Shown piece by piece: positions 10,895-13,069 of a stretch of 64,000 bases of DNA. Made by a program: the position numbers and the translations under genes. Source of the stretch: Gemmatimonadota bacterium (GTDB lineage: Bacteria > Gemmatimonadota > Gemmatimonadetes > Gemmatimonadales > Gemmatimonadaceae); assembly GCA_040388625.1 (NCBI GenBank), contig JAZKBK010000001.1, forward strand, positions 434,001 through 498,000, written 5' to 3'. Every line of letters begins with the position of its first letter. Position 1 is the stretch's first letter. The notes under the pieces are model-generated. The model saw nothing but the letters and a program-made list of their open reading frames with translations. It searched no databases and was not told the DNA's origin.

Positions 10895-11287
10895 ATGCTC
10901 ACCGGACGACAGCGGCTGGGAATCAGGGGCGAATCGATCGCTGCCAGGTGGCTGGTGCTCCGAGGGTGGGAGATTCTGGACCGGCGGTTCCGGAGCGGCC
11001 ATCGTGATATCGACCTGGTGGTTTGCAGGGCCGAGGAGGGCAGCGCGGGCCGGATTGTCGCTTTCGTTGAGGTCAGGACTCGATATTCGACGGATTTTGG
11101 GACGCCTGCCGAGACGGTCGGGTGGAAGAAGCAGCGTGAGTTGGCTAGGTCGGCGCGTGTCTGGGTGGCTTCGAACAGATGTTCGGGAGACCAGTATCGG
11201 TTTGACGTCGTGGGGGTGATAGTGGGTACGGCTCGGGTTCAGATTCAGTATGTGCCGGACGCCTTCTGGTTGCGCTCCTTCGGTTGA
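10895..11287 (+). CDS. yraN: YraN (UPF0102) family nuclease-fold protein
   Basis: A 130-residue member of the UPF0102 family, which adopts a restriction-endonuclease-like fold; its cellular role is not settled. The family pattern is clear: [20 protein letters not shown] (12-31), then the active-site-like strand pair DIDLVV and FVEVRTR, where the family usually has GEIDL and VEVK. Here the first motif reads HRDIDLV, so Glu of GEIDL is replaced by Asp. The start is ATG 10895; its -10-like hexamer lies six bases upstream. It precedes recA by 142 bases, and its stop codon overlaps the -35 of the proposed recA promoter. The family call is firm; nuclease activity is not demonstrated. Confidence 0.88.
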
Positions 11288-11316
11288 TTTTCGGTCTGAT
11301 AGTTCGTATTTTGTTC
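11284..11316 (+). promoter_or_regulatory. recA promoter with GTTC-N7-GTTC SOS-box candidate
   Basis: TTGATT (11284-11289) and TATTTT (11307-11312) are separated by exactly 17 bases, a sigma-70 layout. The direct repeat GTTC (11302-11305), seven bases, GTTC (11313-11316) brackets the -10. This is the architecture of the alphaproteobacterial LexA box. A repressor bound here would block RNA polymerase. The leader to the recA ATG would be about 110 bases. Predicted by eye; no lexA gene is in the window. Confidence 0.55.
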
Positions 11317-11429
11317 GGGGCCTCTGCGGTGCGAAAGAACCTGGGGAATCCCGGCGGTTTTGCCCGGAAACACGAATCCGGATCGGGCAGTCCGGAGTTA
11401 TCTTACATCAGCGAAAGGAAAAGGGACCA

Positions 11430-12482
11430 ATGGGTGCTTCCACCATGCAGGACGACAAGAAGAAGGCGTTGAACCTCGCGGTGGCGCAGATCGAGAAGAA
11501 CTGCGGCAAAGGTTCAATCATGCGGATGGGGACGAGCACCGCTGGTGTGCGCGTTGACTCGATCTCGACAGGCGCCATCAATCTTGATGCAGCGATTGGA
11601 ATTGGTGGTATTCCAAGAGGCCGAGTGACCGAGATCTACGGTCCGGAATCGAGCGGCAAGACGACGTTGTGTTTGCACGTCGTTGCGAATGCTCAGAAGA
11701 ACGGCGGCGTCGCTGCCTACATCGATGCGGAGCACGCGCTCGACACGGAATACGCAGGCAAGCTCGGCGTGGATGTGGAGAATCTCCTGGTATCGCAGCC
11801 TGATACAGGCGAGCAGGCGCTGGAGATCTGCGAGATACTCGTGCGCTCCGGTGCGGTTGACGTTGTGGTGATCGACTCGGTTGCGGCGCTTGTTCCGAAG
11901 GCCGAGATCGAAGGTGACATGGGCGACTCGCACGTCGGATTGCAGGCACGACTTATGAGTCAGGCGCTTCGCAAGCTGACTGGTGCGATCGCGCGATCCA
12001 ACACTTCGGTGATCTTCATCAACCAGCTGCGCGAGAAGATCGGAGTGATGTTCGGCAATCCCGAGACGACGACGGGTGGAAAGGCACTCAAGTTCTACGC
12101 GTCTGTTCGCCTCGACATTCGCCGCATCGGGCCGGTAAAGGACAAGGAGGACGTGGTGGGATCGCACGTCCGCGTGAAGGTCGTCAAGAACAAGGTCGCC
12201 CCGCCGTTCAAGCAGGCCGAGTTCGACATCATGTACGCGGAAGGGATCAGCCACTCCTCGCTGGTGCTGGATATTGCCGCCGAGAACGGCATAATTGACA
12301 AGTCGGGCGCGTGGTACAGTTATGGCAGTCAGAGGATCGGGCAGGGTCGTGAGAACGCCAAGCTCTACCTCAAGGACAACGCTGCCTTGATGTCGGAAGT
12401 AGAGATAAAGGTGAAGGCTCTGCTCGGAATTACCGCTACGACAGCGGTTGCAGCCGAGCCCGAGGCGGTCGAAGAGGTTTAA
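11430..12482 (+). CDS. recA: RecA recombinase
   Basis: ATP-dependent strand-exchange protein and co-protease for LexA self-cleavage. The 350-residue product has Walker [10 protein letters not shown] (Lys77), Walker [13 protein letters not shown], the DNA-binding loop regions ([20 protein letters not shown] and the [16 protein letters not shown] segment) and an acidic C-terminal tail. ATG 11430 is chosen over upstream in-frame codons because AAAGGAAAAGGG lies just upstream and the N terminus then matches the family. A candidate SOS promoter lies at 11284-11316. A nested inverted repeat separates it from recX, its usual regulatory partner. Identity is certain. Confidence 0.98.
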
Positions 12483-12604: not shown

Positions 12605-13069
12605 GTGGCACAGACGCCATATAACCGCGCGCTGGACCTGCTCTCCGCACGACCCTACACGGTGCGCCAGTTGCGTCGCAAGCTCGCCCAGAAGGACGTT
12701 CCGGCCGATGAGGTGGAGGCTGTCATCCAGCGCTTGCTCGGTGCCGGTCTGCTGGACGATGAGCGGTATGCGCTTGGCTATGCGCGATCCAAGCTCGTGG
12801 GACAGGGCTCGTCGGCGCGGCGGATATCGCAGGAACTCGCGCGGAAGGGTGTGAGCGCCGAGCTGAGCAAGCAGGCCATCGCGCAGGTTGTGATCGATGA
12901 GGAGATCGATACGCGAGCCGTCGTCGAGCGAGTAGCGCGCAAGAAGCTCGCGTCGATGGGCGATCTGGAGCCGGTTGTATTGCGGCGCCGATTGTTCGCG
13001 TTTCTGGCTCGCCGCGGATATGAGATGGACGAGATTCGCGAAGTCGTCGCTGCCGTGGGGAAGACGTAG
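12605..13069 (+). CDS. recX: Regulatory protein RecX
   Basis: Modulates RecA by capping or destabilising RecA filaments and inhibiting its ATPase and co-protease activity. The 154-residue product is built of three-helix repeats typical of RecX: RPYTVRQLRRKLAQKDV (first repeat), LLDDERYALGYARSKL (the family DxxYA motif), and a third repeat ending in RRGYEMDEIREVV. GTG 12605 lies 122 bases after recA with a strong inverted repeat between them, consistent with a reduced read-through product from the recA promoter. No separate promoter is evident. Family confident. Confidence 0.92.
   Translation: MAQTPYNRALDLLSARPYTVRQLRRKLAQKDVPADEVEAVIQRLLGAGLLDDERYALGYARSKLVGQGSSARRISQELARKGVSAELSKQAIAQVVIDEEIDTRAVVERVARKKLASMGDLEPVVLRRRLFAFLARRGYEMDEIREVVAAVGKT

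Follow-up and report, generated by a model that had tools for sequence, protein, structure and literature searches.

What is the short direct repeat that lies on the recA promoter of this Gemmatimonadota genome, which protein would bind it, and does it belong, as an earlier note proposed, with the GTTC-N7-GTTC boxes of Alphaproteobacteria? We addressed these questions in the window (the whole 64,000-nucleotide stretch of contig JAZKBK010000001.1, positions 434,001 to 498,000), in the rest of the genome and in relatives from across the phylum. The promoter had been described as TTGATT-N17-TATTTT, and both hexamers were found with that 17-base spacer, while the claimed GTTC-N7-GTTC repeat on the -10 was recovered exactly as GTTCGTATTTTGTTC at 11302-11316, 114-128 bases upstream of the recA ATG (11430). 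A second recA box, over the -35 hexamer at 11279-11294, had been overlooked. The promoter layout read from the sequence is TTCGG TTGATT TTCGG TCTGATAG TTCG TATTTT G TTCGG, and TTGATT is also present in the recA promoters of several relatives. The features of the locus are as follows.

11279..11294, + strand: predicted SOS (LexA) box 1, TTCGGTTGATTTTCGG, a TTCGG-N6-TTCGG direct repeat over the -35 (G000:C1:445279-445294)
11284..11289, + strand: -35 hexamer TTGATT of the recA promoter, from the sequence, 17-base spacer to TATTTT
11303..11318, + strand: predicted SOS (LexA) box 2, TTCGTATTTTGTTCGG, a TTCG-N7-TTCGG direct repeat over the -10
11307..11312, + strand: -10 hexamer TATTTT of the recA promoter, from the sequence; TTCGTATTTT / TTCGTACTTT conserved in family f1
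11430..12482, + strand: recA open reading frame, 350 aa; 100% identity in genome G021, 81-88% in most other family members
12605..13069, + strand: putative recX-like open reading frame downstream of recA, identified by eye

The bare GTTC-N7-GTTC pattern did no better than chance, with 3 matches in the window against 2.29 ± 1.34 expected from shuffles (130 matches genome-wide); the site is significant only through conservation, and the conserved part is TTCG-N7-TTCGG. This is the base pattern common to both recA boxes, with an 11-bp period; box 2 (11303-11318) overlaps the reported GTTC repeat, and in its own genome the pattern occurs 70 times versus 17 for the reversed control. Strict GTTC-N7-GTTC, found in only 3 of 48 lexA and 1 of 48 recA promoters of the phylum, was rejected as the motif.

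To follow the repeat through Gemmatimonadota, we compared 48 usable upstream loci each for lexA and recA, drawn from nine families. TTCGG-N6-TTCGG was present in 46 of the 48 lexA promoters (shuffle mean 0.16, maximum 2), and TTCG-N7-TTCGG in 45 of the 48 recA promoters (shuffle mean 0.41); the two remaining lexA promoters (L158 and L159) belong to the deepest family, f9, and carry two tandem TTCGC-N6-TTCGC boxes. Enumeration of all spaced 5-mer pairs ranked TTCGG-6-TTCGG first for lexA, also in families not used to spot the motif, and two tandem boxes were found in the lexA promoters of nearly all genomes compared. When spacers were scanned in both sets of 48 loci, a spacer of 6 between TTCGG units dominated, that is, direct orientation with an 11-bp period. 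A palindromic (mirror-image) reading was rejected by the same scan, since inverted or everted TTCGG-CCGAA arrangements reached at most 2 of 48 lexA or recA promoters of the phylum at any spacer, the inverted one no more than 1 of 48; these promoters (48 for each gene) thus do not follow the Bacillota-type inverted repeat CGAAC-N4-GTTCG. The recA box lies on the opposite strand in families f4, f7 and f8, as found by eye in the sequences, and box orientation is therefore free. Boxes were also found at imuA in 15 of 16 genomes checked and at gyrB in 13 of 20 f1 genomes (0 of 10 outside f1). In genome-wide tallies, taken partly from a subset of the 150 genomes, TTCGGT-N5-TTCGG was roughly three to eight times as frequent as its reversed control in f1, f2, f5 and f7, the families with better sampling, and showed no excess in f9. 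Judged from these comparisons, the earlier note is right in kind about an alphaproteobacterial-style box, in that the element looks like a LexA-type SOS box built as a direct repeat with an 11-bp period, but wrong on the exact motif, which reads TTCGG-N6-TTCGG.

A profile search with PF01726 identified lexA1 at C1:715998-716603, lexA2 on contig C4 (at about 285.8 kb) and one weaker match. LexA1 scored 65 bits for LexA_DNA_bind (PF01726) and 115 bits for Peptidase_S24 (PF00717), both over the cut-off, and alignment to solved and E. coli-type LexA placed the Ala-Gly cleavage site in VAAGMP, the Ser in RGNSMIED and the Lys in ATVKRF. The closest database LexA proteins, 100% and 96% identical, come from Gemmatimonadetes metagenome-assembled genomes, a search from which the window's own genome was possibly left out. 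As the earlier note would predict, the genome has a lexA whose promoter carries the same direct-repeat box as recA, here as two tandem boxes, one (TTCGGGCATTCTTCGG) between the -35 and the -10 and the other (TTCGGCGGCTGTTCGG) downstream of the -10. In the second protein, lexA2 (L032 1495-2157; G000:C4 ~285800-286460), the S24 residues are complete and the recognition helix, STKTVSDLL, differs from that of LexA1. A paralogue in family f6 pairs with it. No TTCGG box stands in the lexA2 promoter, and the protein probably has an operator of its own.

The half-site can be tied to a single residue of the LexA1 recognition helix, residue 44 (SLATVH-E-H), whose aligned counterpart in E. coli, Glu45, contacts DNA (PMC3091678). 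In a table whose rows include near-copies of one another, each of the 60 Gemmatimonadota rows outside f9 combined Glu at residue 44 with TTCGG, the 2 tabulated f9 genomes combined Lys with TTCGC, and all 57 Acidobacteriota rows had Lys, at least 51 of them (51-52) together with TTCGC. This covariation probably reflects one evolutionary change and not many independent ones; because it may be a single joint change on the tree, it is suggestive and not statistical proof.

We then defined the regulon in this genome by pattern matches together with the sequence stretches around them; many TTCG-N7-TTCGG matches fell inside open reading frames and were taken as background. Boxes lie no more than about 70 bases from the start codons of uvrB, ruvB, imuA, gyrB, a helicase gene of the UvrD/PcrA type, a radical-SAM gene (Rv2578c/PA0069 type) and the gene of a 205-aa protein that matches no family. 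The AT-rich ones among the 70 matches stand before the first six of these. The imuA box heads an imuA-imuB-dnaE2 array, in which imuA was named from an NCBIfam score of 39 bits, below the cut-off, and imuB from its position and weak similarity to DNA polymerase IV. One operator type is thus found at lexA, at recA and at error-prone, nucleotide excision and recombination repair genes. Among the promoters that had been expected to share the motif, those of ruvB and of imuA-imuB-dnaE2 bear it; uvrA does not, there being no TTC-N8-TTC box in the 250 bases upstream of either copy (C4:495222 and C1:106195), and uvrB carries one instead. The gyrB box, TTCGGTATTTATTCGG (L189 2576-2591), lies 47 bases before the ATG, and that of gyrA, TTCGGTATCTATTCGG (L181 2776-2791), is reversed and more than 150 bases upstream; the gyrB box recurs in family f1, as given above, which suggests that gyrase may be under SOS control in Gemmatimonadaceae. 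Radical-SAM (rSAM/splB), imuA-imuB-dnaE2, uvrD and topoisomerase genes are recurrent SOS network members elsewhere (PMC8565304).

Further strong boxes precede genes of less familiar kinds. One (L184 2791-2806) stands before the unclassified 205-aa protein (MPKTDVWFDPSRY...), which is encoded divergently from a protein with an HD domain and is a candidate new SOS gene. Another, TTCGGTGATTGTTCGG (L183 3975-3990), precedes a small open reading frame with no Pfam or NCBIfam match.

The recA-promoter repeat is very probably a LexA operator (SOS box) of the direct-repeat type, with two TTCGG half-sites 11 bp apart, because the sites are conserved, the genome encodes a LexA that has both the cleavage site and the catalytic Ser and Lys, boxes stand at lexA, and the half-site covaries with residue 44. 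That the GTTC-N7-GTTC repeat fell on the promoter by chance and is bound by nothing is very improbable: shuffled sequence does contain the bare pattern as often as the window, and its strict form is unconserved even in most of the family, but throughout the phylum recA, lexA and imuA keep the overlapping TTCG-N7-TTCGG, and for the TTCGG form the promoter comparison and the 5-mer pair enumeration already refute chance. The two LexA-type proteins of this genome give some room to binding by a regulator other than LexA1, be it the LexA2 paralogue or an unrelated damage-responsive activator, yet two boxes mark the lexA1 promoter in almost all genomes and none marks that of lexA2, most order-level relatives with the box have a single LexA match, and the half-site changes together with residue 44 of LexA1, so that we regard such a regulator as improbable.

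The TTCGG repeats might also be a sigma-factor core promoter element, kept for transcription rather than repression, as the overlap of the recA and lexA boxes with the -35, spacer, -10 or start region would allow. Against this, the boxes keep no fixed place relative to the hexamers (at recA one covers the -10, at lexA they occupy the spacer and the stretch following the -10), they are reversed at gyrA and, in families f4, f7 and f8, also at recA, and they mark mainly repair genes, which makes a core element exceedingly improbable. Points against the LexA operator itself are the lack of a uvrA box, the restriction of gyrB boxes to f1 and the fact that lexA2 could in principle bind some of the sites.

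As a LexA operator, the repeat would place two half-sites in the same orientation one helical turn apart, so that the two winged-helix domains of a LexA dimer could sit on one face of the DNA. LexA bound at recA should block RNA polymerase, because one box covers the -35 and the other the -10. Upon DNA damage, RecA filaments would provoke LexA to cut itself at the Ala-Gly bond and the boxes would be emptied, which would turn on recA, lexA, uvrB, ruvB, imuA-imuB-dnaE2, the UvrD-type helicase and the radical-SAM gene, with gyrase added in this family.

TTCGG-N6-TTCGG is almost certainly a LexA docking site, and it appears to be a form of SOS operator for which we found no published description; a LexA motif for Gemmatimonadota was not reported in the open-access literature that we searched. 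With alphaproteobacterial GTTC-N7-GTTC it shares the direct repeat, the 11-bp period, the TTC core, the location at recA and lexA and a LexA of the same supported group, but its half-site extends 3' (TTCGG) whereas the alphaproteobacterial one has a 5' G (GTTC). The recognition helices also differ (SLATVHEHL versus SKSGIHRLI), and Gemmatimonadota LexA is without the long inter-domain insert of its alphaproteobacterial counterpart. In control loci, GTTC/GAAC-N7 repeats were found before lexA in Cereibacter, Sinorhizobium, Methylobacterium, Shinella and Sphingomonas. The Balneolaeota box TTACACATATTTTWTACATA is likewise a LexA-bound direct repeat whose regulon includes recA, translesion polymerases and a radical-SAM protein, but it has a TACA half-site and, on our reading of the published consensus, a 13-bp period (PMC7739468). 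The Bacillota and Actinomycetota box GAAC-N4-GTTC has a half-site, GTTCG, that resembles TTCGG, and a similar helix, SSSTVHGHL; unlike the Gemmatimonadota box, it is an inverted repeat (PMC3323433).

Outside the phylum, the nearest of the database LexA proteins compared were those of Acidobacteriota, with identities of up to about 50%. The box of Acidobacterium capsulatum, which is a direct repeat as in Gemmatimonadota, was reportedly given by Mazon et al. in 2006 as the alphaproteobacterial type, GTTC-N7-GTTC, its lexA being taken as laterally acquired. The Acidobacteriota lexA promoters examined here differ from that published form, reading mostly TTCNC-N6-TTCGC. Most of these loci (L264-L326) have the sequence TTGAC-TTCCC-TTTTTC-TTCGC-CCATAAT, in which the direct repeat lies between the -35 and the -10. 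No convincing box was found at recA in the Acidobacteriota loci examined, which include second recA-like copies, and the lexA box there is therefore a putative SOS box at lexA only.

The earlier note left a choice between convergence and an ancestral direct-repeat LexA. Independent origins have been proposed for direct-repeat LexA boxes, which are known in Alphaproteobacteria (GTTC-N7-GTTC) and Balneolaeota (PMC7739468). Our tree of 47 LexA proteins, a limited sample picked by similarity, recovered Gemmatimonadota lexA1 (support 94/95), Acidobacteriota (96/91) and Alphaproteobacteria (100/97) and joined them with Planctomycetota, placed by the protein tree alone, and a few further proteobacterial LexA in one group (100/98), apart from the LexA of Bacillota, Actinomycetota and gammaproteobacteria, which bind palindromes. 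Topology tests rejected a clade of alpha- and gammaproteobacterial LexA (p 0.02) and did not reject one of Gemmatimonadota with Acidobacteriota (p 0.44) or one of these two together with Alphaproteobacteria (p 0.07). In the same LexA group, a Bdellovibrionales genome, RIFOXYC1 (L329, L371), has TTACGC repeats with an 11-bp period before both lexA and recA, unlike the published Bdellovibrio LexA box, the palindrome TTAC-N3-GTAA. One old direct-repeat lineage is favoured over convergence, though not proven, because of the supported LexA group, the alphaproteobacterial GTTC/GAAC-N7 repeats and the Bdellovibrionales 11-bp repeats. We would give an even chance to the fuller claim that period-11 direct-repeat LexA is a single old lineage, by descent or ancient transfer, comprising Gemmatimonadota, Acidobacteriota, Alphaproteobacteria and some others, in which the half-site drifted (GTTC, TTCGG, TTCGC, possibly TTACGC) with matching changes of the recognition helix (Glu44 with TTCGG, Lys with TTCGC).

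Gemmatimonadota thus gain a phylum-wide candidate SOS operator that is directly testable. If the single old lineage is true, the direct repeats of Alphaproteobacteria would be no local invention, and whether direct-repeat boxes arose once or several times becomes a testable question, through a wider tree and binding swaps.
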